From: Rhodospirillales bacterium
GTDB lineage: Bacteria; Pseudomonadota; Alphaproteobacteria; Rhodospirillales; Casp-alpha2
Assembly: GCA_021775095.1 (NCBI GenBank)
Contig: JAJFII010000069.1
Location: 124,001-188,000 of the forward strand
Direction: 5' to 3'
DNA length: 64,000 nt
Part shown: in pieces, positions 5,170 through 64,000 of the stretch
Layout: every line of letters begins with the position of its first letter
How positions within the stretch are numbered: the stretch's first letter is position 1
Position numbers and translations under genes: made by a program
The notes under the pieces: model-generated
The model's database searches: none
What the model saw: the letters and a program-made list of their open reading frames with translations, nothing else
Told to the model about the DNA's origin: nothing

Positions 5170-5174
5170 TTCCC

Positions 5175-6245: not shown

Positions 6246-6318
6246 GGGTGTTCCTCGTTTATTTTGATTTCCGATTTTGTCCCGGAATAAAAGCCGTAAG
6301 GTCAGATGTGGCGATTAC

Positions 6319-9830: not shown

Positions 9831-9847
9831 ATCCTAAAACCCTCGGG

Positions 9848-9885: not shown

Positions 9886-9905
9886 TAGGGAGGTTTACAG
9901 GGCGT

Positions 9906-11414: not shown

Positions 11415-11552
11415 TGTAGGTCTCCTCTGTTTAGTTACGATGTGGGTGCTCAAATATTGAACACCCGGTCTTCAGAAAGATGGCGATCCCGCCATCGACG
11501 AATTCCGTCCCGATTGCGGCGGGTTAACCCGCTCTTCTATCGGTAATTTTCT

Positions 11553-12278: not shown

Positions 12279-12696
12279 CAAGTTTCCCACCCTATCGTAC
12301 TGGTTCAAAGCGTCTCGATTTCAAGTACGCATAAATTAATATTGGTAAATATTTGTAAATTTTATCGTTATCATATTGTGACAAATTTTAAATGCAAGTC
12401 CTATTATGACCCTGCCTGAAATCATAATTCTAGGAGATTTTTTAAATTTTTCCCAGAGATCAGTACTTAAATCATTGTTTTATTTTATTTTTATAAACCA
12501 GTCCTATGATGACGCGCGGTCAGGAAAATGGCGAATTGTTCAAACCAGAAGAAAAAAAATGTCACTAATTGCGCCTTTTGTCTTCAGCGCGGATATGTGA
12601 GATGGATATTCTTTCGAAAGTCATGTACATCACCAGCGCCAACCGGTGACAAATAGAAGGATAACCGATAGCTGCATCCGTTTGCGTAAAGAATTC
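12279..12696. promoter_or_regulatory. Divergent regulatory region between rraA-like and GntR genes
   Basis: This 418-base AT-rich stretch separates the leftward catabolic/ABC cluster from the rightward regulator and holds both promoters. A 14-base direct repeat AGTCCTAT(T/G)ATGAC occurs at 12397-12410 and 12500-12513 with 13 matches. The dyad ATGTACAT lies near 12621. No gene is seen. Such regions usually carry operators for the neighbouring FadR-type regulator. Confidence 0.5.
12376..12384. promoter_or_regulatory. Candidate FadR/GntR-type operator
   Basis: The perfect dyad TTGT-G-ACAA lies about 100 bases upstream of the rraA-like start. FadR-subfamily regulators commonly bind TNGT...ACNA dyads of this kind. 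The link to the adjacent regulator is inferred only from position and shape. Confidence 0.35.
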
Positions 12697-13473
12697 ATGC
12701 CCATGGATGAGGTTCTATCCAAAAAGATCATACCAATGCAAAACCAGGCGCGAAAAAATACAAAACGAAAAAACCTGACCGAACACCTGATCAGCGATTT
12801 GAAATCGAAGATTCTGATGGGCCGGTTCCCGCCAGGCAGTCAGTTGCCAACAGAACAGGGGTTGATTCGCCAATACGGTGTCAGCCAAACGGTCGTTCGT
12901 GAATCAATTGCTGCATTGAGCGCCCAGGGGTTGGTAGAACCGCGCCACGGTGTCGGCGTATTTGTACTAATGCCTCCCGAGCCTGAAACAGGGCCGAACC
13001 TTTTTATCGTTGATCCCAACAAAGTGTCATCCATATTGGAAGCGTTAGAACTTCGCGCCGGCGTGGAAATCGAAGCGGCCGGGCTTGCCGCCGAGCGTCG
13101 ATCCCCGTCACAGGAAATAAAAATCACTGAAGCCTTTGAACGGCTCAGGGCTGCTGTTGAAGAGGGCAGAGCAGCCACCGTTGGCGATCTCGAATTTCAC
13201 GCCGCCATCGCGGAAGCAACAAACAATACCCTGTTCAAAAACTTCCTCGAATATGTTCATGATAAAACGAAAAATCGGTCTGCGACTATGGGGCACGGTG
13301 CAGACGCCGCTAAAGAATTGCATCAAACGGACTATTTTGTCAGGGAACATCGGGAAATCCTGAGGGCCATCATCAACCGGGATGCACAAGCCGCGCGCCA
13401 GGCAATGCGACGGCATTTGGACAATAGCCGTCAACGGTTTCAGAAATTAAATCGCAGCAAAGTTCTCGGTTAA
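12697..13473 (+). CDS. FadR-subfamily GntR transcriptional regulator
   Basis: A 258-residue regulator. The winged helix is in the segment LTEHLISDLKSKILMGRF to LVEPRHGVGVFV, including the recognition helix GVSQTVVRESIAAL. After it comes an all-helical FCD ligand domain with the conserved metal or ligand residues in DLEFHAAIAEATNN and REHREILRAI. These proteins repress catabolic or transport operons until a small carboxylate is bound. It faces the rraA-ABC cluster divergently and is its most likely regulator. The start is uncertain: ATG at 12697, ATG at 12736 and an upstream GTG are all open and none has a strong ribosome site. Confidence 0.88.
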   Translation: MPMDEVLSKKIIPMQNQARKNTKRKNLTEHLISDLKSKILMGRFPPGSQLPTEQGLIRQYGVSQTVVRESIAALSAQGLVEPRHGVGVFVLMPPEPETGPNLFIVDPNKVSSILEALELRAGVEIEAAGLAAERRSPSQEIKITEAFERLRAAVEEGRAATVGDLEFHAAIAEATNNTLFKNFLEYVHDKTKNRSATMGHGADAAKELHQTDYFVREHREILRAIINRDAQAARQAMRRHLDNSRQRFQKLNRSKVLG

Positions 13474-13509
13474 CTGAGAAACCGCAATTATTCGCAAACC
13501 TGGCAGTTG

Positions 13510-14382
13510 TCACGCCCGCTTCTGAGAGGTCAAAACTATCGACGAAACAAAGATAATCGCCGCGCCAATCAGCGTTGCCAGCGAAAGGATCTCGCCAAAG
13601 AACGCAAACGCCATTAGAGAAATCATTGGCAGCCGCAAAAAATCTAACGGTGCCACATAGGACGCATCAGCTAAGGAAATTGCGCGGGTGACAATCGCCA
13701 TGTTCAGCGCGCCTAACACGCCTTGCAATGCCAGAAGGCCGAACTGAGGTAAACTGGGCTCGGTCCAAAACCAATAGAGCGGAACGGCGGCCAACGGCAC
13801 AGTTAGAATTAAATTCCAGGCAACCAACGTTTCCGTAGAATCCCGTGCCGACATCCGTTTCAACATCAACTGAATAATTGCCGCCAATACGGCACCCCCC
13901 AGCGCAACAAGCAAGGCAATAGAAACTGTGTCCTGGCCCGGTCGCAAGATGACAAGGACACCGGCAAAACCACAAATCACAGCTGCCATATGTCGTCGTG
14001 TCAGATGTTCTCCGAGAAACGCCCAGGCGCCAATCGTGACAAAAATCGGAGCGGCAAACGAAATTGTTGTTACATTTACTAACTCAGCGCGCGATATCGC
14101 AAAGAAAAACGCAACAAGTGTCAGAAGCTTAAGCCCAGCGCGAACCAAATGAAGAAGCGAATAATTACTCGCCAATAGGGAACGTTTGCTCATTATCCAG
14201 GGCGCAATAAACAACAATCCAAAAAAGCTTCGAAAAAAGGCAATGACAAAGGGATGAATGGTTTCCGTTAGCATTCGGACAAGAACCGCATCTCCGGCAT
14301 TAAACAGGGCGGCAATCGCCATGAGGCCGAAAGCGATCAAACGTCGCCGGTCTTTTGGAGTTCGGTCAGGCATCATCTGCAT
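13510..14382 (-). CDS. DMT-family transporter (EamA domains)
   Basis: A 290-residue membrane protein with ten predicted helices in two EamA repeats. The first ends near VLVILRPGQ and the second has the usual PLDFLRLPMISLMAFAFFGE segment. Family members export metabolites such as amino acids; the substrate is not readable. It is convergent with the GntR regulator gene (36-base gap), so it is not clearly part of that regulon. Confidence 0.88.
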   Translation of the reverse strand: MQMMPDRTPKDRRRLIAFGLMAIAALFNAGDAVLVRMLTETIHPFVIAFFRSFFGLLFIAPWIMSKRSLLASNYSLLHLVRAGLKLLTLVAFFFAISRAELVNVTTISFAAPIFVTIGAWAFLGEHLTRRHMAAVICGFAGVLVILRPGQDTVSIALLVALGGAVLAAIIQLMLKRMSARDSTETLVAWNLILTVPLAAVPLYWFWTEPSLPQFGLLALQGVLGALNMAIVTRAISLADASYVAPLDFLRLPMISLMAFAFFGEILSLATLIGAAIIFVSSIVLTSQKRA

Positions 14383-15002
<620 letters not shown>

Positions 15003-15068
15003 ACCGATGCACAGATGTGCGAAGTGTGGCGGGGTTATAGCGCTGCTCGGATGGGAGATCAAGCGGCC

Positions 15069-16085
15069 TTAATAGGCCCGCTCAATGCAGAAGTCGATCA
15101 AATCCTCAAAAACGCTTTTGATCTCGCTTTCTTTAAATATTCCCAAAGAATCGCGGGCGATGGAGCCGTAATGACGGGCCCGTTCGACGGAGTCTTTCAG
15201 GGCCCCATGTCTTTCCATGAGACTGAGCGCATGGGAAAAATCATCGTCGGTTTGATCAAGTTCTTCCAGGGTTCGACGCCAAAAAGTTCGCTCTTTTTCG
15301 TCGCCCCGGCGAAACGCCAGAACCACTGGCAATGATATTTTACCTTCTTTGAAGTCGTCACCGATGGATTTACCCAGCGTCGCCTGTTTGGCGGAATAGT
15401 CCAGGACGTCGTCAATTAACTGGAAGGCAATCCCTAAATTCATGCCATAGGATTTAAGCGCCGTCTCTTCCACCGGTGGGCGGTCGGCGACAACTGCGCC
15501 GATCTGGCAGGCGGCGGCAAACAGTTGGGCGGTTTTCGCCTTAATCACTTCGAGATAAGTATCTTCACTGGTCTGGGTATCATTGGTCGTCATTAATTGC
15601 AAAACTTCTCCTTCGGCAATCACCGAAGATGCATGCGACAGGATACGCAAGACATCAAGGGAGCCGTCTTCTACCATCAGCTCAAAAGAGCGGCTAAACA
15701 GAAAATCACCGACAAGAACACTCGCTTGGTTGCCCCACAGCGCGTTGGCGGACTCCTGTCCGCGTCGTAAATTACTTTCATCAACGACATCGTCATGTAA
15801 CAGGGTTGCCGTATGAATAAACTCCACACAGGTTGCCAAGGAGACCTGACGCTCGCCCCTGTAACCGCATAATTTTGCCGCGCCCAAGGTCAATAACGGG
15901 CGCAACCGTTTGCCGCCCGCTGCGATGATATGTCCGGCGAGCTGAGGCACCAGATCGACGTCCGATTCCATGCGGCGCAGGATTAGGGCGTTTACGGCCT
16001 TGAGGTCGTTTGCCACGTGGTTGCCCAGTGTTTCCAAGGGCGATACCTTGGTACGGTCTTCATCCAGATTTATGACAACTCCCAC
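15069..16085 (-). CDS. ispB: Polyprenyl (octaprenyl/decaprenyl) diphosphate synthase
   Basis: A 338-residue trans-prenyltransferase. GGKRLRP at 57-63 binds diphosphate, the first aspartate-rich motif DDVVD is at 98-102, and the second, DDVLD, is at 225-229. It makes the long side chain of ubiquinone from isopentenyl diphosphate; in alphaproteobacteria the product is often C50, so the chain length is not certain. The start is GTG with GGAG 9 bases upstream. tRNA-Pro lies immediately downstream on the same strand. Confidence 0.95.
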   Translation of the reverse strand: MGVVINLDEDRTKVSPLETLGNHVANDLKAVNALILRRMESDVDLVPQLAGHIIAAGGKRLRPLLTLGAAKLCGYRGERQVSLATCVEFIHTATLLHDDVVDESNLRRGQESANALWGNQASVLVGDFLFSRSFELMVEDGSLDVLRILSHASSVIAEGEVLQLMTTNDTQTSEDTYLEVIKAKTAQLFAAACQIGAVVADRPPVEETALKSYGMNLGIAFQLIDDVLDYSAKQATLGKSIGDDFKEGKISLPVVLAFRRGDEKERTFWRRTLEELDQTDDDFSHALSLMERHGALKDSVERARHYGSIARDSLGIFKESEIKSVFEDLIDFCIERAY

Positions 16086-16252
16086 GCAGGCGGCTCCTTT
16101 AGGTCCGAGACAACTTGACGTCCTTTAAACAGAAGGCGAGCATAGGTATGCATGTGCTTATTGGTCAAGACAACATAAAGCGACCAATTTTCGGCGTCTG
16201 TGATACAAGTCAATTCCTAAGGATAAACGGCACTTAAATACATGGGGCAACA

Positions 16253-16498
16253 ATGGTAGAGTTAACGCGTTCAAACGACCCGGTTTTTTTATCCTGGTTA
16301 ATGGCCCACCTTGCGAGCGAAGGCGTCGAAGCAATTGTTCTTGATGCCCATGCCAGTGTTATGGAGGGGAGCATTTCTGCGATCCAGCGTCGTGTTATGG
16401 TGATCGATGAGGACCTGGCGGCGGCCAAAGCGATATTGGCAGAGGCGGAAAGTCTGGCAGCGGAAACCACATCACCGGAGCCCCATGACCCGCGCTAA
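16253..16498 (+). CDS. DUF2007 small protein
   Basis: An 81-residue protein matching the DUF2007 pattern: an N-terminal VELTRSNDPVFLSWLMAHL helix, LASEGVEAIVLD, and a final strand RRVMVIDEDLAAAKAIL. The family is a small alpha/beta fold often placed near PII-like signalling proteins, with no proven function. Its end overlaps the methyltransferase start by 14 bases, a linkage often seen in alphaproteobacteria. Confidence 0.9.
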   Translation: MVELTRSNDPVFLSWLMAHLASEGVEAIVLDAHASVMEGSISAIQRRVMVIDEDLAAAKAILAEAESLAAETTSPEPHDPR

Positions 16499-17291
16499 AC
16501 CGACCCGGCTCTCTGGCGCGCCGTTGATTGCGCATGACGAAACCTGGCTATTGGACGGGGCTGTGGTTTTTTTGCAACCGCAAAAAGGATACCGCTCGGC
16601 AATCGACCCGGTGTTTCTGGCCGCTGCCGTGAACGCCAAGCCTGGTGATCGTGTATTGGATGTGGGGTCCGGAACGGGTTGCGCTTCTTTGTGTCTTGCG
16701 GCGCGGGTCAGCGGACTTCGCATCACCGGGCTTGAATTGCAGTCCGATTATGTGAATTTGGCGAAAAAAAGCGCCGAGCTCAACGGCTGGCGCGAGCAGA
16801 TAAATTTTCTACCCGGTGATTTGGCTGAAATGGCTTTGTCCCCGGACCTCCGGGAATTTGATCATGTCATGACCAATCCACCCTATATGGAGCGGCGGCA
16901 CGGTAGAATTTCGCCCGATAAACAAAAAGCTTTGGCAACTGCCGAAAGCCATTTAGAACTGCACGATTGGTTGCAAACCTGTGCGCGAATGACGAGATCG
17001 AAAGGCACTGTAACGGTTATTCATCGTGCGGATCGACTGGAACATATCCTCGCTGCCTTTAGCGGCATCCTTGGCGGTTTGATGATCTGCCCGTTGTGGC
17101 CTTATGAGGCGCAGGATTCCCGGCAACCCCTATTGAACGCCAACCGGGTTATTGTCAGAGGTCGCAAGGGATCCAAAACCCCCGGGCAGTTGAAAAGAGG
17201 ACTGACCTTGCACCGGGGACCAACCGGTGCCTATACGGAACTGGCTGCGGGTATATTGAACGGAACCAAATCAATAGTTGATATGTACTGA
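16485..17291 (+). CDS. TrmN6-type SAM-dependent N6-adenine methyltransferase
   Basis: A 268-residue class I methyltransferase. SAM motif I is VLDVGSGTGCASL (57-69), and NPPY (131-134) is the catalytic motif of enzymes that methylate an exocyclic adenine amino group. Similarity of layout to TrmN6 (YfiC) suggests it methylates A37 of tRNA-Val; another RNA target is possible. The start at 16485 was chosen because GGAG sits 4 bases upstream; a longer reading would run far inside the DUF2007 gene. Confidence 0.88.
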   Translation: MTRAKPTRLSGAPLIAHDETWLLDGAVVFLQPQKGYRSAIDPVFLAAAVNAKPGDRVLDVGSGTGCASLCLAARVSGLRITGLELQSDYVNLAKKSAELNGWREQINFLPGDLAEMALSPDLREFDHVMTNPPYMERRHGRISPDKQKALATAESHLELHDWLQTCARMTRSKGTVTVIHRADRLEHILAAFSGILGGLMICPLWPYEAQDSRQPLLNANRVIVRGRKGSKTPGQLKRGLTLHRGPTGAYTELAAGILNGTKSIVDMY

Positions 17292-17381
17292 AACAAAAAA
17301 GATATCCTGAGACGCCTGGGGTATCTGGAAAAAGATTGTCGATAATTCGGCAATCAGGTAACTGACGGCGAGCAAGTTTAT

Positions 17382-17765
17382 TTAATTGATCGACTGATAC
17401 CCGTAGATAAACCAGCCCGCACAGCCAAACGACACCAACCAGATACAGACAATTATCACGGCTGCCGTGCGACTGGTCGGGCGTTGTTGTTGCCTATTGG
17501 CCATCTTTCGATGGTCAGCCATGACGTCAGGGGGGATCAGTTTGACGATAAGATAAATTCCAATCGGCAGAAGAATAATATCGTCAAGGTATCCTATAAT
17601 TGGAATGAAATCCGGAATCAGATCAATTGGTGACACCGCATAGGCAGCGACAACCATCGCTAAAGCTTTGGCATACCAAGGTACACGAGGGTCGCGGCCG
17701 GCAAGGTAAAGCGCATGGACGTCGCGCTTGATAGCTTTTGCCCAGTTCCTTAGTCGGTCAATCAT
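17382..17765 (-). CDS. DUF1232 membrane protein
   Basis: A 127-residue protein. The DUF1232 core is AGRDPRVPWYAKALAMVVAAYAVSPIDLIPDFIPI, split over a membrane helix, followed by the second helix IILLPIGIYLIVKLI. A third helix near the C terminus is an addition. The function is unknown in general. The start at 17765 fits the common N terminus MIDRLRNWAKAIKRDV; an upstream TTG would add 22 unusual residues. Confidence 0.85.
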   Translation of the reverse strand: MIDRLRNWAKAIKRDVHALYLAGRDPRVPWYAKALAMVVAAYAVSPIDLIPDFIPIIGYLDDIILLPIGIYLIVKLIPPDVMADHRKMANRQQQRPTSRTAAVIIVCIWLVSFGCAGWFIYGYQSIN

Positions 17766-17935
17766 GGGCACCGCATTACTCTTTTTCAATTGGGATTTCA
17801 ATGTCGCCGTCGGGGCCGAGGGATTTGTCAAATCAGCTTGGTTTGGCGGCGGCTTCCTCGCAGCGCGGCCGGTCGCATTGGAGGCCGCTCACTTTTTCGT
17901 TTTACTTCGATATGGCTGGCCGCTAAAAGGACCGT

Positions 17936-18178
17936 ATGTTCGGTTTATTCAGCCTTCCCAAACTCCTGCTCCTCGGTGCCATTATCTGCGCGGTGTGGTA
18001 TGGATTTAATTGGTTAAACCGACGCCAAAACCAATTAAAACATACCGATCGTAACGCGCCTTCCAGCAATAAAAAACGCGCCGAATCTGGCTCCAGCGAG
18101 CCCGATATCGAAGAGATGGTTGCCTGTCCTGATTGTGGTGCATACGTCGCCAAGGGCAGCAGGCACAGGTGTGGATAG
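17936..18178 (+). CDS. Membrane-anchored zinc-ribbon small protein (PP0621-like)
   Basis: An 80-residue protein. Residues 6-24 form one membrane helix. A charged linker follows, and the C terminus VACPDCGAYVAKGSRHRC holds Cys/Cys...His/Cys spaced as a small zinc-binding site. The layout is like short conserved proteobacterial proteins of unknown role (PP0621 family). The ribosome site AAAGGA is 4 bases before ATG. Confidence 0.8.
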   Translation: MFGLFSLPKLLLLGAIICAVWYGFNWLNRRQNQLKHTDRNAPSSNKKRAESGSSEPDIEEMVACPDCGAYVAKGSRHRCG

Positions 18179-18295
18179 GTTTTTTTCGCAATTGCACAAT
18201 TTTATCGGTGACGCGGCTTGATTCTATTGGAGGCGCTGGTTAGGTTCTCCGGGCATTTTGACAATTCTCCGTGATGGCCTGGAAGATTACCCCCC

Positions 18296-19195
18296 ATGGC
18301 GAGCCTACCCAATAAAGACACCTGTTTCCAAAATCTGATCTTAAAGCTGCAGGCCTTTTGGGCTGACCAAGGATGTGTCCTTTTGCAACCCTACGACATG
18401 GAAGTGGGGGCCGGCACGTTCCACCCGGCGACCACGTTGCGTTCCCTGGGGAAACCCGACGATGTCTGGAACTGCGCCTACGTGCAACCGTCGCGGCGGC
18501 CAACCGATGGCCGCTATGGTGAAAACCCCAACCGGCTTCAGCACTATTATCAGTTTCAAGTCTTGATGAAACCCAGTCCGATCAACATTCAAGACCTGTA
18601 TTTGGAAAGTTTGGAGGTGCTTGGTATCGATAAAAATTTCCATGATGTTCGATTTGTTGAAGACGACTGGGAAAGTCCAACCCTGGGGGCCTGGGGGTTG
18701 GGATGGGAAGTCTGGTGCGATGGCATGGAAGTTTCCCAGTTCACTTATTTCCAGCAGGTCGGCGGATTTGACTGCAATCCCATACCCGTTGAAATCACCT
18801 ACGGGTTGGAGCGACTGGCTATGTACGTGCAGGGCGTTGAAAATGTTTATGATCTGGATTGGGACGGGGTTGATAAAACGCGCGGCGGCAAAACCTATGG
18901 CGATGTCTTTTTGCAGGCGGAAAAGGAATTTTCGGCGCACAATTTCGAACACGCCAATACCGACCGTCTGAAATTACATTTTGCCAATGCGGAGGAAGAA
19001 TGTGCTTTGCTGTTGGCCCAAAACCTGACGCTGCCGGCCTATGATCAATGTCTGAAAGCCAGTCATTTGTTTAATCTGCTCGATGCCCGTGGTGTCATCT
19101 CCGTGACCGAGCGCCAGGCCTATATTGGACGGGTACGTACCCTTGCTAAAGGTGCCGCCGAGGGGTGGATGCGTAGCCAGGGAATGGATCTGTAA
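18296..19195 (+). CDS. glyQ: Glycine-tRNA ligase alpha subunit
   Basis: A 299-residue catalytic alpha subunit of the bacterial alpha2beta2 glycyl-tRNA synthetase. Recognisable blocks are [40 protein letters not shown] and [14 protein letters not shown], which build the class II active site. The beta-subunit gene starts two bases after the stop, as is usual. Confidence 0.98.
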
Positions 19196-38045: not shown

Positions 38046-38122
38046 GGCTGGGTAGCTCAGCTGGTTAGAGCGCGGCACTCATAATGCCGAGGTCGGCAGT
38101 TCAAGTCTGCCTCCAGCTACCA
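38046..38122 (+). tRNA. tRNA-Met (anticodon CAT), prophage attachment gene
   Basis: A complete cloverleaf with the D arm TAGCTCAGCTGGTTAGAGC, the anticodon loop CTCATAA giving CAT, the T loop GTTCAAG, and an encoded CCA. It resembles elongator tRNA-Met; an isoleucine tRNA with modified CAT cannot be excluded without modification data. A tyrosine integrase gene ends 71 bases downstream and points at it, so the 3' half is the likely attL core. The matching attR was not found in the window. Confidence 0.93.
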
Positions 38123-38167: not shown

Positions 38168-38206
38168 GTGTCAAACCTTTTTGGACATACCTCTAAGGTT
38201 TGACAC
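38168..38206. repeat. 12-bp perfect inverted repeat at the end of int
   Basis: GTGTCAAACCTT at 38168-38179 is mirrored by its exact complement at 38195-38206. The right arm overlaps the last codons of the integrase gene. It may be the int terminator, or a binding or arm site for recombination near attL. It lacks a long T-tract on the minus side. Confidence 0.6.
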
Positions 38207-39275
38207 TCTTGTTCGATTTTTGTCCCGCTTCCATCTTCTCACCGGCAGAATCTGCGAGCACTTTTTGACGTGCTGATTTGGTATATCGCTGGACTTCTTT
38301 TAGCGTCGTCCAGCCACCAATAGACATGATTTCATGATCACTGCATCCCAGTTCAGCCATTCTGGCTGCCGATGCTTTTCGTAGGCCATGGGCAGAACAA
38401 TGCGGTAATCCGGCCTCGTCACACCATTTGCGAAACCGGGAGCCGAAACCGTTGGCAGTGAACGGTTTATTAAACGATGTGACCAAGTAGGTCATATCAC
38501 CGGTCGGTGACAGGTCCAGTATACGACGCAATTCAGATATTATCGGTATCGACAATCGAATGGGGTGTTTCTTGCGACCCTTGAACTGGGTGAATTCCAG
38601 GCGCCCCAGGTGCTCATGCTGCCGGCCAAGTTGCACGATGTCGGATCTGCGCTGACAGGTATATAACAACAATGCCAACGTCATTCGGGCTTTGGTCCCT
38701 TCGGCGTGAAAATCTTCATATCGCTGAACCTCTCCCAGCGTCCAGGGGTGGAAGCCGTTTCCGCTGTGCAGGCTCGGGATTTTCCATGCCGGGTTTACCT
38801 CGACAAGCTCCATATCACAGGCATATTCGTAAACTTGGCGGATTGCCTTGACCATATTATTGGCAGTCCCAGGGACGTGAGAATGTTTGTCCCGAATGGC
38901 GGATATATGCTTTTTGGTCAAAAGGGCATAGGGCTTATCGCCGTGGTCCTCGATTATCCGGTCGAGCAAACCAGATCTGGTGGTCGCCGTCTTTGGTTCC
39001 AGCATCTTATACTGAGCGGATTTTTTGTATTGCAGACATAGCCAGGCGAAACTTCCAGACTTTGCTATCTTTGGCGCTTTTGGTTTTCCTGAGGTTTGCA
39101 GGCCGGGCGGGATTTTGCCGGCCGCTGCGGCATGATAATCAAGCCAAAATTCAGGAGACCCAATCGGAGTCCTTAATGCGTAGGTGGTAAATCCCTTGCG
39201 GCGAAAGTAAGCACGTTCAGATCCGTGCCGATCGGAAAAGTTCTGCACATACTTAATGTCGACCGTCTTACTCAA
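38193..39275 (-). CDS. int: Phage tyrosine integrase
   Basis: A 360-residue tyrosine recombinase. The N-terminal arm-binding and core-binding parts come first. The catalytic part has Arg209 in TCQRRSDIV, the HGLRK box (His296, Arg299), Trp322 in IGGW and the nucleophile Tyr331 in RYTKSAR. It joins phage and bacterial att sites at tRNA-Met. The start is TTG overlapping the stop of the upstream excisionase-like gene (TTGA), so expression is coupled. Confidence 0.95.
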   Translation of the reverse strand: MSKTVDIKYVQNFSDRHGSERAYFRRKGFTTYALRTPIGSPEFWLDYHAAAAGKIPPGLQTSGKPKAPKIAKSGSFAWLCLQYKKSAQYKMLEPKTATTRSGLLDRIIEDHGDKPYALLTKKHISAIRDKHSHVPGTANNMVKAIRQVYEYACDMELVEVNPAWKIPSLHSGNGFHPWTLGEVQRYEDFHAEGTKARMTLALLLYTCQRRSDIVQLGRQHEHLGRLEFTQFKGRKKHPIRLSIPIISELRRILDLSPTGDMTYLVTSFNKPFTANGFGSRFRKWCDEAGLPHCSAHGLRKASAARMAELGCSDHEIMSIGGWTTLKEVQRYTKSARQKVLADSAGEKMEAGQKSNKSVKP

Positions 39276-53772: not shown

Positions 53773-54515
53773 TGGCAGGCCAAAACACCTCATCTGCCGT
53801 CATGGCGCAACGAACCGAAGCCCACGACAGTTTGGATGATTTTCCGACAATGCCCTGGGGCACTCGGGCACTTGTAGAGCACGTTCTATTTCCCGCTGGG
53901 GTTCCTTTTGCAATGATGAAAGTTTGGGAGCCGGCGGCGAACAGGGGATATATGGTTTCGCCCCTTGAGGAATATTTCGCGACAGTCTACGCCAGCGATG
54001 TTCATGATTATGGGGCTGGCTTTCACGTCCACGATTTCTTGCAGCCGTATCGACCCGACGGGTTTGACGACATTGAATTCGTCATCACAAACCCACCATT
54101 TAGGCTGGCCAAACAATTTATTGAGCGCGGTCTTGACGTGGCAAGCGTGGGGATCGCCGTCGTTGTCCGAACATCCTTTCTTGAGGGTATCGATCGCTAT
54201 GAAACCCTCTTTCGCGATAATCCGCCGACAATTGTCGCGCCTTTCGTCGAGCGAATTCCAATGTTCCGAGGCCGCATAGATCCGACTGGTAGCAGTGCTA
54301 CCAGTTACACCTGGCTTGTATGGATTAAGGACTGCGAGCCCATGCCGATGTGCTGGATCCCGCCTTGTCGTCGCGGCCTGGAACGCCCAGGAGACTACAA
54401 ATTCAATCCGAATAACCAGAGCGGCCCAGACCGTTTACCAGCCGTCAACACTGAAGCGGCTGGGCCCGCATTTCGGCTCGGTTGCTCAGGTTTGCCTAAA
54501 CAGGGAGCAAAATAA
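53772..54515 (+). CDS. Adenine-type DNA methyltransferase (NPPF)
   Basis: A 247-residue protein. WEPAANRGYMV is a diverged SAM-binding motif, and ITNPPFRLAK (NPPF at 107-110) is the catalytic motif for exocyclic amino methylation. The size suits a phage orphan N6-adenine methyltransferase or a close relative. It has no restriction partner. It begins at the last base of the radical SAM gene stop (TAATG) and ends on the start of the cytosine methyltransferase. Confidence 0.78.
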   Translation: MAGQNTSSAVMAQRTEAHDSLDDFPTMPWGTRALVEHVLFPAGVPFAMMKVWEPAANRGYMVSPLEEYFATVYASDVHDYGAGFHVHDFLQPYRPDGFDDIEFVITNPPFRLAKQFIERGLDVASVGIAVVVRTSFLEGIDRYETLFRDNPPTIVAPFVERIPMFRGRIDPTGSSATSYTWLVWIKDCEPMPMCWIPPCRRGLERPGDYKFNPNNQSGPDRLPAVNTEAAGPAFRLGCSGLPKQGAK

Positions 54516-56422
54516 TGCCAGGTTTAATTGTTGATAATTTCGCCGGCGGCGGTGGTGCCAGTGTTGGAATTGAAATGGCCCTGGGTCGCTCGATCGATAT
54601 CGCGGTTAATCATGATCCGCGTGCCGTCGCAATGCATAAACTCAACCATCCGAATACCCGGCATTTCTGTGAGGACGTCTGGACGGTGGACCCTTTGGAA
54701 GCGACTAAAGGCAAACCGGTTGATCTGGCGTGGTTCAGCCCCGATTGCACGCATTTCAGTAAAGCCCGGGGCTCCAAACCAGTTAAGAAGAATATACGCG
54801 GCCTGGCCTGGGTTGTTCTTAAATGGGCAGTGCTGACACGGCCAACGGAAATCTACCTGGAAAATGTCGAAGAGTTTCAGGACTGGGGGCCGGTCAACGA
54901 TGACAACATGCCGTGCCCTGATCGACGTGGTGAAACTTTTGATGCATTTAAACGAGCGCTTTCATCAGGCGTGCCCAAATCCCATCCGGCATGGTCTGAA
55001 ATCAAGTCTCATCTCCAGGCTGAAGGAAATAAATATTCAGACAAGATAATCAACGCGATAACCAAAGGGCTTGGGTACGACGTCGAGTTCAAACCTCTCA
55101 AGGCGTCAGATTATGGTGCGCCAACGATCCGCAAACGGTTGTTCATGGCCGCGCGATGCGACGGTCAACCCATTGTATGGCCGGACCAATCCCACGGAAA
55201 AAAGGGTTCAGGCTTGTTGCCGGAACGAACCGCCGCGGAATGTATTGATTGGTCGATACCGTGTCCGTCGATATTCGAACGCAAGCGGCCGTTAGCGGAA
55301 AAAACCATGAAGCGGATTGCCATGGGGCTGAAGCGGTTTGTGATCGATGCGGAAGAACCGTTTATCGTTAAGGTCAATCACGGCGACGATATGCGGTTCC
55401 GAGGCCAAAGTGTTTCTGAACCGATCGATACCCTGACGTCAAAAAATGGCTTTGGTCTCATTACGCCTTACGTCAGCACCTACTACGGTGCGAAAAGCGA
55501 CAATGACGGGAGAGGGGCAAGTCTGGACGAACCACTGCGCACCCAAACAACTGAAAATCGCCATGCGCTAATAACGCCCTACGTCAACAGGACTTTTGGT
55601 GAAGGTGTCGGACGTCGTGCAGATGGGCCTTTGCCAACGACGACAAGTGGTGGAATGGGTAAAAGCCAACTGGTTACACCCTACATATCCCGGATCGGTC
55701 AAACCGGAGGGAAAGGAATCTATTCGAACGATGCCCGGGACCCGCTGACAACGGTCACTTCAAAGAATGAACATCTGTTGATTTCCCCTTCGATAGTTGG
55801 TGTCGGGGGGAGGGCAGGACAATCTCGCCCGAGGGGTGTCGACGAACCTATGGCCACGACTACGGCCAAGGCGGATACGGCAATCGTCGAAGCTTTCCTG
55901 GCCAAGCATTTCGGCGGTGTCGTCGGTGTTGAAGTCGACAAACCGTTACCAACCATTCTTTCCAGGGCGACACAGACGCAAATTGTCACTTCGCACATGT
56001 TGAAACTGCGGGGCACCTGCCGGCACGGACAACCGATCGACGAGCCGGCACCGACGATAACCGCGACCGGCCAGCACATTGCAGAAGTTCGCGCCTTTCT
56101 CATGAAATACTATTCGTCCGGCGGTCAATGGGCATCAGTCAAAGATCCCATGCACACCATCACGTCAAAGGAACGTCTGGGTTTGGTTACCGTCCAGGGC
56201 GAGGACTACCAGATCGCTGATATCGGCATGAGGATGCTTGATCCAAAAGAATTATACCGGGCCCAGGGCTTCCCCGAGACCTATCAAATCAAGCCAATGT
56301 TCAATGGAAAGTATATCACCAAAACAGACCAGGTCCGGATGGTCGGGAATTCGGTTTCCCCGCACCCTGCCTGTGCGCTTATCCGTGCGAACCGTCCTGC
56401 GGGACAGGCGGTGGCTGCATGA
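54515..56422 (+). CDS. C5-cytosine DNA methyltransferase with repeat-type recognition region
   Basis: A 635-residue enzyme. Motif I is FAGGGGAS (9-16), motif IV is SPDCTHFS with catalytic Cys78 (SPDC in place of the usual PPCQ), motif VI is ENV (116-118), motif VIII is DYGAPTIRKRLF, and the last motif is GNSVSPHPACALI (611-623). Between them, residues 298-560 hold eight copies of a DEPLxTxT...LITPYV-like unit as the target recognition region. It is likely an orphan phage methylase that protects its DNA from host restriction. GGAG lies upstream. Confidence 0.93.
   Translation: MPGLIVDNFAGGGGASVGIEMALGRSIDIAVNHDPRAVAMHKLNHPNTRHFCEDVWTVDPLEATKGKPVDLAWFSPDCTHFSKARGSKPVKKNIRGLAWVVLKWAVLTRPTEIYLENVEEFQDWGPVNDDNMPCPDRRGETFDAFKRALSSGVPKSHPAWSEIKSHLQAEGNKYSDKIINAITKGLGYDVEFKPLKASDYGAPTIRKRLFMAARCDGQPIVWPDQSHGKKGSGLLPERTAAECIDWSIPCPSIFERKRPLAEKTMKRIAMGLKRFVIDAEEPFIVKVNHGDDMRFRGQSVSEPIDTLTSKNGFGLITPYVSTYYGAKSDNDGRGASLDEPLRTQTTENRHALITPYVNRTFGEGVGRRADGPLPTTTSGGMGKSQLVTPYISRIGQTGGKGIYSNDARDPLTTVTSKNEHLLISPSIVGVGGRAGQSRPRGVDEPMATTTAKADTAIVEAFLAKHFGGVVGVEVDKPLPTILSRATQTQIVTSHMLKLRGTCRHGQPIDEPAPTITATGQHIAEVRAFLMKYYSSGGQWASVKDPMHTITSKERLGLVTVQGEDYQIADIGMRMLDPKELYRAQGFPETYQIKPMFNGKYITKTDQVRMVGNSVSPHPACALIRANRPAGQAVAA
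55406..56194 (+). repeat. Eight protein-coding tandem repeats in the cytosine methylase
   Basis: At about residues 298, 335, 367, 405, 440, 472, 506 and 540 the units read SEPIDTLTS, DEPLRTQTT, DGPLPTTTS, RDPLTTVTS, DEPMATTTA, DKPLPTILS, DEPAPTITA and KDPMHTITS, most followed by a hydrophobic ITPYV-like strand. Spacing is about 32-38 residues. The DNA is diverged, so the repeats are old and kept by selection. Confidence 0.85.
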
Positions 56423-56907: not shown

Positions 56908-57167
56908 CCTGCAGACGCGCTATCCAGCCAGCCAACAGGGCGGCATATTGGGCTGTAACTCTTCGCAGGGCGGCGTCTACGGCTCACAGAGCGGCTTTTA
57001 ATGCTGACCCGAGCCGTGAGAAGGCCGCGATCACTTGCAACGCTCTCCGGCTTTACCTGACTGAAATAAAAATGGCACCGGGCGAGATCAATCGCCGGGT
57101 CGACAAGATGTGGTGTGACCTGATCGAAATTTGCGAATACGTCGATAAGCAGGTGTCAAATGGTTGA
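56904..57167 (+). CDS. Hypothetical phage protein
   Basis: An 87-residue basic, helical protein (opening MTCRRAIQPANRAAYW) of unknown function, between the DnaA-like gene and dnaB. It overlaps the first by four bases and the second by eight, so it belongs to the replication operon. It could be a helicase-loading factor by place, but no motif supports that. Confidence 0.6.
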   Translation: MTCRRAIQPANRAAYWAVTLRRAASTAHRAAFNADPSREKAAITCNALRLYLTEIKMAPGEINRRVDKMWCDLIEICEYVDKQVSNG

Positions 57168-58641
57168 AAATGAGCCCGACTATCTGAGAGAAGTATCTCC
57201 GGATGACGCGGTTCAGCAAACTGAATTTATGCCGCGGGTGCCGCCATCGAACCTGGACATCGAAAAGAGCTTTCTGGGCTCAATCCTTTTGCACAATTCT
57301 ATTTATGAAGATGCGGCAGAAATTTTACGGCCGCAGCATTTTGCCAGTCAAACATACGGCGAGATATTTGAGATCATCGGCAAGATCATCAACAGGGGTG
57401 ACATCGCCGACGGATGGACCTTGCGGACCTTCTTTGAGGAAAACAGAAAGCTTCAATCAATCGGTGGTGATGCATTTCTGGCCGAAATCGCCAGTGCTGC
57501 CATGAACAAAAAAACAGCACTTGGTTATGCCAAAGTCATAGTGGAGCTTTACCAAAAAAGAGAGCTGATCTTATTCGGCGAAGATGTCGCGGTTCGTGGC
57601 TATAGCAGTGAACCAGATGATACGGCCAAAGCTGTTCTTGAATTTGCGGACAAACGTTTGTTTGAGCTGAGCGAACCGGGCAGGGTGCCAGAGCAATCCC
57701 GCGACGCTGGTATTAACGATTCTATGCGCCTGACGGAGCAACGCTACCAAGACCCTGACAGCCTATCTGGCGTGACCACGGGATTGGAAAAGCTCGATAA
57801 CGAACTTCTTGGATTGCAACGGCAGGATCTCATTGTATTGGCGGCTGCGTCATCAATGGGAAAAACAACACTTGCCCAGAAGTTTGCGAAGGGATCCGCC
57901 GACGCCGGCGTTCCCGCTGATTTATTTTCAATGGAAATGCCGGCAAGCCAGATCTGGCAACGGATTGTATCAGACAAGGCGAATGTTCCCCTGAATTTTA
58001 TTCGCTCAGGTCGATACCACGATGACGAACAGGCTCACAGGGTTTTTGAGACATACAACGAGCTTAAACGATCATTCCCCGTTGATGTGATAAGCGGGGT
58101 GCGCAGCGTCCCGGAAATTCGTTCCGTGGTGCGCCGATCGATCAAGTCGGTGGGCACTGGTTTGGTTATTGTCGACCAGTTATCTCATGTCAGGGACACG
58201 TCCGGATATACGCAGCGCAACCACCAATACGGGGCCCTTACCAAGAGCCTCAAAGCCATGGCAATGGAACTCAAGATTCCCGTGGTTTTGCTGCACCAGA
58301 TTAACCGTGGCGTGGCCAGCCGAGAAGACAAACGACCCAACCTGTCAGACCTTCGCGATAGTGGCGAGATTGAACAGGATGCTGACGTCGTATTGTTCCT
58401 ATACCGCGAACATTATTACCTCAAGAAAGCCGAACCCCAACAGCAGGACCGGGAAAGCACAGACGATTTCTCTATCCGCTATGCAAAGTGGCAAGCCCGT
58501 CTGGAAGCCAAAAAATACAGTGCTGAAATCGATATAGCCAAACAACGAATGGGGCCGACGTCGACCGTGCACGTTCACTACAACGGTGCCTATTCGAGAT
58601 TTGGAACCCAAGACACGACAGAAAAGGATTTTGACTTATGA
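57160..58641 (+). CDS. dnaB: Replicative DNA helicase, DnaB type
   Basis: A 493-residue hexameric helicase. The N-terminal domain has IEKSFLGSILLHNSIYEDA. The C-terminal RecA-like domain has Walker A (AASSMGKTT, about 228-237), Walker B (LVIVDQLSH) and the arginine-finger block DLRDSGEIEQDADVVLFLYR. It carries phage replication in place of the host enzyme. It overlaps the DUF1376 gene by four bases. Confidence 0.96.
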   Translation: MVENEPDYLREVSPDDAVQQTEFMPRVPPSNLDIEKSFLGSILLHNSIYEDAAEILRPQHFASQTYGEIFEIIGKIINRGDIADGWTLRTFFEENRKLQSIGGDAFLAEIASAAMNKKTALGYAKVIVELYQKRELILFGEDVAVRGYSSEPDDTAKAVLEFADKRLFELSEPGRVPEQSRDAGINDSMRLTEQRYQDPDSLSGVTTGLEKLDNELLGLQRQDLIVLAAASSMGKTTLAQKFAKGSADAGVPADLFSMEMPASQIWQRIVSDKANVPLNFIRSGRYHDDEQAHRVFETYNELKRSFPVDVISGVRSVPEIRSVVRRSIKSVGTGLVIVDQLSHVRDTSGYTQRNHQYGALTKSLKAMAMELKIPVVLLHQINRGVASREDKRPNLSDLRDSGEIEQDADVVLFLYREHYYLKKAEPQQQDRESTDDFSIRYAKWQARLEAKKYSAEIDIAKQRMGPTSTVHVHYNGAYSRFGTQDTTEKDFDL

Positions 58642-59612
58642 CCACACGCAAAAACATATCGAATAAAATGCAGAGAACGGCAGTTTCACATATCGATTTT
58701 TACGCAGATGATTGGTTGGCAGGAGCGTCAGAATTAACACCTGAACAACGCGGTGCATTTATCACTATTTGCGCCCTATATTATTCAAAGCAGGGTAGGG
58801 TGCCGGAGAACGATCATTGGCTATCAGGCATGTGCAATATGTCTGTGAGAAAATGGCGATCGATCAAAAATACATTGATCGAAATCGGAAAAATAGAAGT
58901 CATCGACGGGTTTATCTTCCAAGAACGTTCAGAAATCGAGCTTGAAAACGCGCTGAAAGCAAAAGAATTCGCGCGGATAAACGGATCGAAAGGAGGCAAA
59001 AAAAGCGCTGAAATTCGGACTAACGCTATGAAAAGACACAAAACAGGGTCAAGCAGGGCTTCAAGCGCCGCTCAAGCGACGGTTGAAGCTGAGAATCAAC
59101 CTCCCTACCCCAACCCCTACCCCTATACTAATCAACAACCATCTCAACCTACTACCGCGCGCGACGTTCCCCAGGGTGATGATTTTGAACCGGTCGAATT
59201 TATCAAACTTTATGATCGCCTCGTTGTCGAGATTTGGGGGCAGCCCCAACTGGAACGGATGTGTCCAAGCCAAACTGATCATATCACCGCCGGGATTTTC
59301 AAGGATAACGGCGTTTCGTTGAGGCTTGCCGATCAGGTTTTCAGGGGCATTCTCGGAAACGCGAAAGGCAAGGGCAATCCGCCGCCGTCGGCGCTCAGAT
59401 ATTTTGTCAAACCGATGGAACAGGCGCTGGTATCAGGGCCGCCGAGGGTGGGCCCAACGAACGTGATCGACATTAATGACCGCGAAAATAACCAATGGAA
59501 GGCCAGGCTTACAGGGTTTCGGGACCGGGGATCATGGCTCGATGACTGGGGCCCAAAACCGGGCGAGCCAGAATGCAGGGTGCCGAGGGAGTTACTGGAG
59601 CAGGTTGCATGA
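58638..59612 (+). CDS. DUF1376 phage protein
   Basis: A 324-residue protein. Residues 16-110 (VSHIDFYADDWLAGASELT to FIFQERSEIELE) are a DUF1376 domain, common in prophage replication modules and thought to act in helicase loading or replisome assembly. A disordered Ser/Pro/Thr/Gln-rich linker follows, then a second helical part. It comes straight after dnaB (ATGA overlap). Confidence 0.88.
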   Translation: MTTRKNISNKMQRTAVSHIDFYADDWLAGASELTPEQRGAFITICALYYSKQGRVPENDHWLSGMCNMSVRKWRSIKNTLIEIGKIEVIDGFIFQERSEIELENALKAKEFARINGSKGGKKSAEIRTNAMKRHKTGSSRASSAAQATVEAENQPPYPNPYPYTNQQPSQPTTARDVPQGDDFEPVEFIKLYDRLVVEIWGQPQLERMCPSQTDHITAGIFKDNGVSLRLADQVFRGILGNAKGKGNPPPSALRYFVKPMEQALVSGPPRVGPTNVIDINDRENNQWKARLTGFRDRGSWLDDWGPKPGEPECRVPRELLEQVA

Positions 59613-59806
59613 TACGACTGAGCCGCAGTGGAGAATGCCGAGTAACGCATCGCAGACCTGTCGAAGATGTTAAACGAGAGGGATGGGTGGACGAGGGGAC
59701 CTTGGTCATTTCGGTTCTGGATCCAGATTTGACCTGGCCGGAAAGGGAGTTGGTTGATCAGCTTGGAACTAAAAAATACGGGAAGACAAAGGTGCGTGGT
59801 GAATGA
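59609..59806 (+). CDS. Hypothetical phage protein
   Basis: A 65-residue protein opening MIRLSRSGECRVTHRRPVED; it was not recognised. ATGA overlaps tie it to both neighbours. The Asp/Glu-rich middle and basic ends do not suggest a known fold. Confidence 0.6.
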   Translation: MIRLSRSGECRVTHRRPVEDVKREGWVDEGTLVISVLDPDLTWPERELVDQLGTKKYGKTKVRGE

Positions 59807-60612
59807 GAAATCAATTTCAACCGATTAAAAAACTTGCTCGCGTGGCTCTGGACCAGGCGGATAATTGCAAAGCGGTTGTCGATGTCGTTTTGTCAATCGA
59901 GAAGGAATTCAAAATCACAGGCGAGCAGGTACTGCTGGACCAGGCCAATGAATTGCGCGGAATGGTTACACGTCACCTGCGCCGAAAAGAGCCGGCACCC
60001 AAAAAGGACAAAGATACACCGACGCCAGAAACGAAGCAGAAACTTCGTAAAGACCCGGTGATGATCATGTTCAATCGAAACAGTTTGAGTGTTCAGGATT
60101 TGCGATCAGTCGATCTCATCCGGAACTGCATCGAGGCGATTTCGAAAGGTATCTCTTTGAAGGGGTCTAATCTGGATTCCGTTCGAGTCGACGGCCATGG
60201 AGCTTTCAGGGACCCAATCGACCGGATGACATTAAAGATGAATTATGATTATTCGACCGTATACGCCCCGTGGGCTGACGAAATGAAAACCTACGTAGTG
60301 CCAGAGACCAGAGAACTTAAACGCGCCTGTCCGATGCTTACAGAAGGCGAGCGCATCCAAATCGAATTATCAGGTGGGACAATGGACGCACCACTACAAT
60401 GTAAGGCCGATTGGACACCAACTGTCCGAAACATGAAAAAACATGAGCGAATAAGATTGAGACACATAGATTTAGTTAAGCAGGTTGTGGTCGATGGCGT
60501 CCGAATAAGAGAAGTTGAGGGGAATTACAAAGTTAGAAACGGCTCTTTGTCCAAACCGTTTATATCCACGATCCGCAGGTTTACTGCATTGTGTGAGCGT
60601 GCTGGAATTTAG
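59803..60612 (+). CDS. Hypothetical phage protein, end of rightward operon
   Basis: A 269-residue protein. A helical N terminus (VALDQADNCKAVVDVVLSIEK) leads to a Lys/Pro-rich linker near residue 65-85 and a C-terminal beta-rich part. It was not recognised. It is the last clear gene read rightward; the next gene faces it. Confidence 0.65.
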   Translation: MRNQFQPIKKLARVALDQADNCKAVVDVVLSIEKEFKITGEQVLLDQANELRGMVTRHLRRKEPAPKKDKDTPTPETKQKLRKDPVMIMFNRNSLSVQDLRSVDLIRNCIEAISKGISLKGSNLDSVRVDGHGAFRDPIDRMTLKMNYDYSTVYAPWADEMKTYVVPETRELKRACPMLTEGERIQIELSGGTMDAPLQCKADWTPTVRNMKKHERIRLRHIDLVKQVVVDGVRIREVEGNYKVRNGSLSKPFISTIRRFTALCERAGI

Positions 60613-60818
60613 CAACCATTGACATTGACTTCGCCAAAAATATCGGTGTCACAACAACGTTATTGCTTAATTCATAGCCCCCACTCTACATTTTCGTTCA
60701 AACCAGATTGTAAAGTGACATCGTCAGGTAGTCGAAGTGTGGTTTTCCGGACGAACACTTTCGTTGTGTTCTGAACCGTTCCAGAAATCGGCACATTGAT
60801 GGGCGGCTATAATTATTG
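60613..60818. other. Gap between convergent genes
   Basis: 206 bases separate the last rightward phage gene from the leftward NACHT gene. It holds no gene or attR-like copy of the tRNA-Met end. Base composition turns AT-rich here. It could be the left boundary of an inserted cargo segment. Confidence 0.5.
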
Positions 60819-63779
60819 TTACTCTTTAAAAGCACCCGTTTTTTTTATAAAAGGCACCATTTTTTGAACATCTTCAAATATCCGTAGGATCTTTTCATCG
60901 TCATAATTGATGGCTAGAAGACCTGCCTTTGTGGCATTCATTGCTTCCCCCGATGCCTCAATTAGCGATCCAATTTGAGAATTATAATTAACTCGTAGAA
61001 ACGCCAATATAGCCAAATGCGAAAATATCCAGAGAGACAAATATTCGTCAGTCATTTCCTGTACCATTAGATTTATTGGTATATTTTGGTAAATATATTT
61101 TGGAGTGGTAAAGATTGGACTTCGTTGAAAGTGTAACGTTAACCGTTGAATTCTATTTTGCCGCTCGTAGTCCAATATTCTCAAACCGTATCTCAATATT
61201 GGGAATCCCTTTGGTGATGCACCTTCAGCAAATACTGCCAACAACGCCTCGGAAATACTTACAACATCTGCAACAAAAAACGTTTTCCTTTGTATCCTGA
61301 TTACACTTGAATTCCATATTTCTGCGCCGCGCCGCGCTGCTTCATCTGGGAAATCACCAAATATATCAAGATGAATTTTGGCTATGTCCTTATCTTCACT
61401 GGCCTTTTTGATAGCCTTTTCGTCGGATTGAAGTTTATCCAATAGGCTTTCGAAAAGGTCACGATGATCACTTTTGCTTATCCCATACGTTAATTCGTCA
61501 GCAAACTGTCCTGTTTTTCTATTAACCTCTGTCAAATAAATCACGGCTTCATCTGAGATTCCGGCAACTATTGCTCTTCTCCGTTTATTCATACTCCAAA
61601 GCAACCGCGATATACTCGATGTTCCCTGATCAATTCTAATTACAGTCCGAACGAAAGAATGGATTTCCATTTCCGATACACCAGAAAGGCAGTCTAGTAC
61701 CTCAAGCATAAATGAGGAATACTCTTGCAGGTTGGATTTCCTTATCTTTTCTCTTTGGGCGACCTCAATCAAATAGTTTGCGATTATTGAAGCACTAGAT
61801 CTAGTTGACTCAATCCTTTCCTGTATCGCTAGAACGCTTGGCACATGCCAAGAACCATCGAGAATTTTTGGCTCAATCGCTTTCAACAAATCAATTGTGC
61901 GTTCATTCTTTTCATGTAGTGACTGTGCAAAAAAATATTCAAGAAATGTACGGTGGGTAAAATTAAAATATTCTGGGCCTTTTTCCGTGAGTATCCACGC
62001 TCGCCCCGTGACAAACCTAACCACGCTTTCTGCATCCGTTTTTGCACGAAGATTGCCTACGTCTTTGTAGTAGGAGCGCACAAAATGGGCTTCAATCATT
62101 TGGGTGAGCCTACGTTTCGAAATGCCATCTGCATATTCGGCTTCCGTAAACATCGGAACCGCAATTTCTCTTATTAAATCAAAGATGCTGAAACCTTGAG
62201 GTAATTCACTTTGAATTCCTCGTTGCCGGTCCCAATCATCAAACATTAGTTTAGCGCAGGCACTATATAAACCGGCGCGGGTCGCAGGCAATTCTCCTTG
62301 CCGCATATGAAATAGCCAGCACATTAAGGTCAGCATAAGCGGGTTTCCGATAAGATCCGCACTATATCCCCCAACGCCCTTCATAAATTCGACGCTAGAT
62401 TTTTCAGCGTCTGCATGTTTTTTGCCCCAAAGTTCAACGGATAAATTGACAAATAACTCTTTCGCATTTTGAGCCGGTAATTGCATCAATTCATACGTAT
62501 CAAAACCATTCATCGGTGCTTGCGAATATCCATGTTTCCTAGAAGTTACCAAAATACGGCAGAGAGGAAATTTGTGAGCGAGCCCTTGAATTGCGTCTCG
62601 ATATTCCCTTCGAATTTGCAATTCGATGATTTCGTCGATCCCATCAAAAATCAGAAATAGGTGCCCGTAACCAAGATAATTCAGCAAATACGATTTTGTA
62701 TCGTTTATTGAGTCGTCTGTAAGCTTTGAAAGTTCTGCGGCGAGAAAATCAACAATCGAAATATTTGGATTAACTGCTGTTGCAGCTCGATACCGTTTTG
62801 CTTCCGACAATATTGGAATTTGCCCCAACTTGTGTTGGGCATTCTGAGCCAAGTTTGTAGAACACCAACGGGTTAACGTGGTTTTTCCACCACCCGGGTC
62901 ACCAAGTAATACTGCATGATGTATTTCCGAATAAACCTCGTTGGGATTTAACACAGCGTCTAAATCTTTATTCGCCAACAATTTAACTGGGCATTCTGCG
63001 AATACTCGATTGGAATTAACATGCTTTTGCTGGTTATCAGCCCCATAAACCGGAGTCATTGCAGTCTGATGTTCTACTGCTTCCGATACGCGCAGCCCCC
63101 ATTCTCTTAATGCATCAATACTAACTTTTGGCGGGAAAGGTGGAAGGTTTGCTTTTTTTCTTCCCTCATCACCATATAGATTTACTAAGCATTTATCTCT
63201 AGAAGCGAATTGATTTATTAAATCCCTATCCCGCATTTTTAATTCACGCTTAAGTTCATATTCGATAAGCGAAGATGAAACAGCTGAATTTTTGGCAAGT
63301 TCGCGGACCTGTTTAATTTCCACTTCTTGCCGACGTTCGTATAAACTACGTGAAAACGAGCGCATGAACCTGTCGTAAGTGTCAAGCCCTGCAGATTTTG
63401 TACGGCCAGTATGATAAATATATAGACTACAAAAACATTCTCGCGCACCCTCACGGTTTTCGTAGGAAAACTGGGTATCCATTTTACCGGTCTTATTGTT
63501 GTATTCGTCAATAGGAGGATATAAAATTGCTATTTCCACTAAATGCTGAAGAAATCCACAATCTCTAATTCCATTTAAAAAATTTCCTAGGGATTCGGTC
63601 AACTCACCTTTGCGGCCAAATGCTCTTTCCACATCATTGATCGATTTCGATATAATCTTTTTAAATTTCTGCCCATCATCCATTGCGTCATGAACATTAA
63701 TTATTCGCGCTACGGGATAGGAGAGGCGTTTAATCGCGCTGGGTAGCAACATTTGTAAAGCTTCACCAATTACTCCCAC
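60819..63779 (-). CDS. NACHT-type STAND NTPase, candidate anti-phage defence protein
   Basis: A 986-residue protein. The N-terminal part (about 1-240) is helical with no readable catalytic motif. The NACHT core has Walker A GDPGGGKT (293-300), Walker B LFLIFDGIDEI (374-384) and the sensor-type RILVTSR (408-414). The C-terminal half is helical with no LRR or WD pattern, so it may be a sensor region. Bacterial NACHT proteins protect cells from phage. It starts with GTG, GGAG 7 bases upstream, and stands alone on the strand opposite the neighbouring operon. Three 60-base samples had 39 % G+C in total, against 55 % in one dnaB sample, so it was probably acquired from elsewhere. Confidence 0.85.
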   Translation of the reverse strand: MGVIGEALQMLLPSAIKRLSYPVARIINVHDAMDDGQKFKKIISKSINDVERAFGRKGELTESLGNFLNGIRDCGFLQHLVEIAILYPPIDEYNNKTGKMDTQFSYENREGARECFCSLYIYHTGRTKSAGLDTYDRFMRSFSRSLYERRQEVEIKQVRELAKNSAVSSSLIEYELKRELKMRDRDLINQFASRDKCLVNLYGDEGRKKANLPPFPPKVSIDALREWGLRVSEAVEHQTAMTPVYGADNQQKHVNSNRVFAECPVKLLANKDLDAVLNPNEVYSEIHHAVLLGDPGGGKTTLTRWCSTNLAQNAQHKLGQIPILSEAKRYRAATAVNPNISIVDFLAAELSKLTDDSINDTKSYLLNYLGYGHLFLIFDGIDEIIELQIRREYRDAIQGLAHKFPLCRILVTSRKHGYSQAPMNGFDTYELMQLPAQNAKELFVNLSVELWGKKHADAEKSSVEFMKGVGGYSADLIGNPLMLTLMCWLFHMRQGELPATRAGLYSACAKLMFDDWDRQRGIQSELPQGFSIFDLIREIAVPMFTEAEYADGISKRRLTQMIEAHFVRSYYKDVGNLRAKTDAESVVRFVTGRAWILTEKGPEYFNFTHRTFLEYFFAQSLHEKNERTIDLLKAIEPKILDGSWHVPSVLAIQERIESTRSSASIIANYLIEVAQREKIRKSNLQEYSSFMLEVLDCLSGVSEMEIHSFVRTVIRIDQGTSSISRLLWSMNKRRRAIVAGISDEAVIYLTEVNRKTGQFADELTYGISKSDHRDLFESLLDKLQSDEKAIKKASEDKDIAKIHLDIFGDFPDEAARRGAEIWNSSVIRIQRKTFFVADVVSISEALLAVFAEGASPKGFPILRYGLRILDYERQNRIQRLTLHFQRSPIFTTPKYIYQNIPINLMVQEMTDEYLSLWIFSHLAILAFLRVNYNSQIGSLIEASGEAMNATKAGLLAINYDDEKILRIFEDVQKMVPFIKKTGAFKE

Positions 63780-64000
63780 AAACGATCTCCTATTTTATTT
63801 GAATTTCATCGGGCGATTTTGGATATGCGAATTGATTCTTACATTAATGAATTTTCTAATCAACGAATTTTCAACCATAAATTGCTGCATGACAGGGTGA
63901 GTATTTGATCTTCTCGCTGTTCTGCGCCAATTTTACTCCCGAAGTACTGATATATCCGCAGTATTTTTACAGTAAACGTCCGGACACTCATCGCGATTTT
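63780..64000. promoter_or_regulatory. AT-rich upstream region of the NACHT gene
   Basis: 221 bases with no gene on either strand, AT-rich like the NACHT gene. It holds the NACHT ribosome site GGAG and, presumably, its promoter; no clear -35/-10 pair could be fixed. No tRNA-Met 3' repeat is present, so the prophage end is beyond the window. Confidence 0.45.

Follow-up and report, generated by a model that had tools for sequence, protein, structure and literature searches.

An NLR-related NACHT protein encoded in a prophage region of a Rhodospirillales bacterium, a probable single-gene antiphage sensor

Most of the characterised bacterial NACHT defence proteins are enterobacterial. The bNACHT proteins, among them bNACHT25 and bNACHT12 (Whiteley group), have a tripartite architecture and act in antiphage defence by STAND logic (PMC12169576), and prophages and satellites are known to carry STAND and other defence genes (PMC9122126). 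In the alphaproteobacterium Caulobacter, the CARD-NLR-like system LypABC controls gene transfer agent lysis (PMC13236601). Here we describe a NACHT gene from a Rhodospirillales bacterium (assembly GCA_021775095.1), located in a window of 64,000 nucleotides that comprises positions 124,001 to 188,000 of contig JAJFII010000069.1. The gene probably encodes a prophage-borne, single-gene, NLR-related (bNACHT-type) abortive-infection sensor. Bacterial NLR-related defence proteins are already known as a kind; the subfamily is rare and new, and neither it nor its end domains are described in the family libraries and literature searched.

The NACHT gene lies on the minus strand at 60819-63779 and is intact: from a GTG start, with an AGGAG Shine-Dalgarno sequence 6 nt upstream, the 986-codon frame is open throughout. 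Pfam NACHT (PF05729, curated cutoff 26.7 bits) matched residues 290-443 with 42.3 bits, and the Walker A motif GDPGGGKT (residues 293-300; 62880-62903, minus) and the Walker B motif FLIFDGIDE (residues 375-383; 62631-62657, minus) are both present, which together identify a NACHT STAND NTPase. The winged-helix motif THRTFLEYFF was also found. No LRR family was matched in Pfam at E values up to 1 and, as C-terminal leucine-rich repeats are lacking, the protein is termed NLR-related rather than a bona fide NLR. The Pfam matches included no nuclease, TIR or protease family, and PADLOC and NCBIfam gave weak matches to the NACHT part only. These results agree with the sequence-only reading, which had recognised a lone 986-residue NACHT STAND protein of the bacterial kind, with both Walker motifs and without LRRs.

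Relatives were found by pattern searches. Six are full-length (959-991 aa) and all come from other genera of the Alphaproteobacteria: Pseudovibrio exalbescens (locus L029), Rhizobium cremeum (L030), Shimia gijangensis (L031), a Minwuia MAG (L020/L032), Pelagimonas (L033) and Pararhodobacter aggregans (L034). The window protein is the most divergent member, with about 22-24% identity to the others. A profile of the six relatives aligned to its residues 279-828 with 301 bits; the next NACHT protein tried reached 153 bits. Pairwise identity within the family was about 31% in the core and about 14-20% in the N-terminus. Of 385 genomes of the class, 2 had a full-length member; in the family to which the Pelagimonas genome belongs, only that genome did, out of 395. 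Viral contigs and phage records yielded no relatives of the window protein beyond generic NACHT matches. The profile of EruA (NCBIfam NF058535) matched around Walker A in all seven members (best E 1e-10), but on the window protein it reached 27.5 bits against a cutoff of 1000, reflecting the shared NACHT domain only, and no metallophosphatase domain was found. The profile of the antiphage NACHT protein DS-8 weakly matched one family member (E 1e-3).

An AlphaFold model of the full-length protein was built from the seven family members; its mean pLDDT was 51, poor outside the core and sound enough within it. In a Foldseek search with this model, NLRC4 ranked first. VIA-align placed residues ~218-745 (61545-63128, minus) on NOD2, NLRP3 and NLRC4 with Z scores of 12-12.6 and rmsd values of 7.8-10.5 over 361-395 residues, and these and other animal NLRs scored above DnaA, ORC and p97. 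The predicted model has the NBD followed by HD1, a winged helix and HD2, the order by which a STAND protein is recognised. Although this NACHT-HD1-WHD-HD2 core is shared with the animal proteins, sequence identity to them is about 10-14% and no CARD or PYD was recognised in the window protein. Because residues ~218-745 align with the NLR core, much of what had been noted earlier as a C-terminal helical region after residue 440 is standard NLR core: up to about residue 745 it corresponds to HD1-WHD-HD2, and the remainder, residues ~746-986, stands as a candidate sensor.

The N-terminal region (residues 1 to ~217; 63129-63779, minus) is an all-helical putative effector that matches no family. 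The family N-terminal model has helices at residues 4-27, 31-38, 45-57, 65-76, 79-88, 94-106, 112-140 and 143-171, with a mean pLDDT of 62 and values of 64-86 in blocks at about residues 60-200. Within the first ~215 residues there was no Pfam match, to PD-(D/E)XK, TIR or other recognised effectors, and no recognised catalytic motif, in line with the earlier remark that no nuclease or protease motif could be read there. No credible match to this model came from Foldseek (best E 0.33 in PDB and 0.17 among viral structures) or from VIA-align (Z at most 4.2); at such a pLDDT the model is too weak for the absence of a match to make the fold new. Residues 48-83 are the only part of the N-terminus that is clearly family-like (hhalign score 26.7; highest shuffle score 18.8). 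In six of six relatives the first helix ranks with the most hydrophobic stretches of the protein (top 0.1-1.3% of sequence windows), whereas in the window protein it does not stand out (top 10%), and an effector acting on membranes is thus only a guess. Two further N-terminal candidates were dropped: kinship with Rhodococcus and Streptomyces NACHT proteins seemed possible by eye and scored no better than shuffles, and a coronavirus spike construct that the N-terminal profile matched (E 7e-4) was put down to coiled-helix composition.

The C-terminal region (residues ~746-986; 60822-61544, minus) is a helical, fast-diverging candidate sensor without LRRs, as judged from Pfam, the model and the family comparison. 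Over its last ~160 residues, the window protein retains no similarity to the family. No SNaCT or NCH1 C-terminal domain was among the Pfam matches of the seven members at E values up to 1; the same library did detect SNaCT11 in a control protein, so the control covers SNaCT11. As silent sites are saturated among the relatives, rates were compared by dN and not by dN/dS. Among close relatives, dN was lowest in the core (0.11-0.24) and higher in the N-terminus (0.32-0.54) and the C-terminus (0.39-0.70), the two ends thus diverging 2-5 times faster than the NACHT core. A conserved core with fast-changing ends is the pattern expected of sensor and effector ends. The window protein resembles the bNACHT proteins in being a single protein with a central NACHT core, a non-LRR C-terminus and an N-terminal region in the effector position, but differs from them in that no PD-(D/E)XK nuclease, SNaCT or NCH-type domain was matched and its ends belong to no Pfam family. 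A separate phage-borne NLR-related gene was observed in the tailless Vibrio phage 10N.286.49.B11_PE003 (14.8 kb; L046), where positions 4725-6515 encode a 596-aa NACHT protein with SNaCT11, annotated as bNACHT01-like.

The integration site of the prophage region is a tRNA-Met gene (38046-38122, plus), whose 3' end contains the 15-bp attL core TGCCTCCAGCTACCA (38108-38122, plus). Beside it lie an integrase arm-type-like repeat, GTGTCAAACCTT (38168-38179, plus), and its inverted copy, AAGGTTTGACAC (38195-38206, plus), both common to the attR side. A tyrosine integrase gene (38193-39275, minus; Pfam Phage_integrase, phrog_1) abuts the tRNA and is followed by early genes, a CI-like phage repressor (49297-49968, minus; HTH and S24-type region read from the sequence, no family scan), methyltransferases, a phage DnaB-like replicative helicase (57160-58641, plus; phrog_19) and a phage primosomal protein (58638-59612, plus; phrog_9327). 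Left of the NACHT gene the phage genes end with g59803 (59803-60612, plus), and to the right of the NACHT gene, which is 22.7 kb from attL, a 55-aa ORF on the plus strand belongs to phage family phrog_16066.

The contig that carries the window (C79) ends at base 64500, 500 bp beyond the window, and no second copy of the tRNA end or att site was found between 39 kb and that point. The only matching attR in the genome is on contig C25, where positions 9554-9568 are identical to 15 bp of the tRNA 3' end. On its phage side it is flanked by GTGTCAAACCTT repeats as at 38168-38206, and on the opposite side a terminator-like stem follows. Another genome of the same genus keeps the left flank and the tRNA with a terminator-like stem directly behind them, as an unoccupied site. 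The search for an empty site with joined flanks gave no match across the junction in relatives, since these do not share the sequence to the right of the tRNA. At C1:125-139, another 15-bp match to the tRNA end was rejected as attR, as it lies in coding repeats of a giant surface-type protein. With the att core and the repeats common to C79 and C25, and no att copy between on C79, the case that these sites are the attL and attR of one element, its ends on separate contigs and the NACHT gene inside, is strong though not complete. The possibility raised earlier, that the gene sits inside the prophage, is upheld to that extent, and an attR left of 60819, which would have spoken against it, was not seen.

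In composition, the stretch at 60613-64000 is an AT-rich insert (about 0.37-0.45 GC), flanked by phage genes with a higher GC. The NACHT gene has a GC of 0.41 and a GC3 of 0.35; the corresponding values are 0.47-0.54 and 0.51-0.60 in the prophage genes tested, and GC3 is 0.61-0.69 in the host genes tested. By these values it is a moron-like insert in the prophage. Plus-strand phage genes lie on either side of it, and its description as AT-rich, on the opposite strand and alone holds. The six relatives are likewise AT-rich (0.39-0.47 versus flanks of 0.50-0.64). Two of the six adjoin known antiphage systems: the Pelagimonas gene a type II-A retron (RT and NDT; island at L033:4451-8784), with an integrase near tRNA-Leu, and the Pararhodobacter gene a Lamassu LmuA/LmuC/LmuB set (island at L034:5171-8831) with an integrase. 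Three have an integrase, or a tRNA gene with phage genes, close by. The Minwuia gene (L020) has a terminase-like gene on one side and tRNA-Gly on the other, and the Pseudovibrio gene adjoins a tRNA-Met gene, GIY-YIG-type and GHKL-ATPase genes following at a greater distance. Mobile, defence-rich settings thus recur while the partners change, which fits a stand-alone gene. In the Pelagimonas island, a gene beside the NACHT relative encodes a product with a GDSG motif that is trypsin-like by eye and has no Pfam match.

The reading as an abortive-infection sensor is based on the NACHT core, the prophage location, the moron-like composition and the relatives in mobile, defence-rich islands; antiphage activity is the most likely role, judging from the family, the architecture and the relatives' neighbours. 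In the resting lysogen the protein would be an ADP-bound monomer, and its C-terminal helical region would sense a superinfecting phage through one of its products or effects, either directly or via a host process. Nucleotide exchange would then allow the NACHT core to form a ring and cluster the N-terminal helical domains, which might act as effector by membrane disruption or partner recruitment rather than as nuclease or protease. The superinfected lysogen would arrest or die before the intruder matures, and the prophage would gain by the protection of its own host. A bolder version would see in the ~215-residue N-terminal domain a bacterial death effector of an undescribed class: a bundle of helices whose leading hydrophobic, small-residue-rich helix is driven into the membrane by NACHT rings, functionally like the plant resistosome or fungal HeLo-type domains. 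This version is tentative and on balance doubtful. The gene represents a rare, phage-carried alphaproteobacterial NACHT subfamily whose putative effector region at the N-terminus and candidate sensor region at the C-terminus are its own. It is a single defined gene for studying how NLR-like proteins work when no enzyme is recognised in them, and would add another example of a prophage that equips its host against competitors.

The location inside the prophage, after the replication genes, would also suit a protein that serves the prophage's own cycle through timed host lysis or gene-transfer release. LypABC offers a precedent, as a CARD-NLR-like control of GTA lysis in an alphaproteobacterium (PMC13236601), and shares with the window protein an NLR-like ATPase and a link to cell death and phage-like elements. 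However, LypABC is a multi-gene system with trypsin-like proteases and TPR repeats, whereas the window gene stands alone, with no CARD-protease partner gene beside it on the contig up to its end; it is AT-rich and on the strand opposite to the replication genes, pointing to a recent insert, and its relatives occupy varied islands beside a type II-A retron or Lamassu and no fixed phage-type position. We consider such a role unlikely. A STAND regulator outside defence, for example in MalT-type transcription control, is more doubtful still: STAND proteins do include regulators, but no DNA-binding domain was matched in Pfam, and the family is rare, patchy and placed near defence systems.

That the gene belongs to a host defence island, the element ending left of 60819, is very improbable. 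The early end of the contig, which leaves the right junction on another contig, is what makes room for it; against it are the lack of an att copy from 39 kb onwards, the attR on C25 followed by the stem expected behind a tRNA, and the phrog_16066 ORF to the right of the gene. The divergence of the window copy could be taken as the mark of a decayed or inert passenger, yet the complete reading frame, the good ribosome-binding site, the intact core motifs and, among the relatives, an amino-acid change far below the saturated silent change leave this with hardly any weight. A prophage-borne antiphage sensor remains the preferred reading.

Several further observations concern the rest of the element and the genome. 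On the C25 stretch that contains attR (9000-19035; L172), the right end of the element has genes for two HNH_2 endonucleases, a MazG-like protein and an Exo_endo_phos protein, apparently additional cargo. Just outside attR, at C25:9061-9348 and about 4083-4271, are fragments related to g59803 (the former with 62% identity to its product over 81 residues), perhaps remnants of an element that previously occupied this tRNA. Contig C61 (5.8 kb; L149) begins inside a terminase large subunit gene, with downstream genes that are ParB-like by eye, and is possibly the middle piece of the window prophage. Contig C36 of the same genome carries, at about 20-22 kb (L148), a second prophage with terminase and structural genes; its terminase was considered as part of the window prophage and judged to belong to a separate one. 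At 54515-56422 the window encodes a phage cytosine methyltransferase of 635 aa, which has several internal repeat units interposed between its motifs and is common in phage contigs (163 relatives found).
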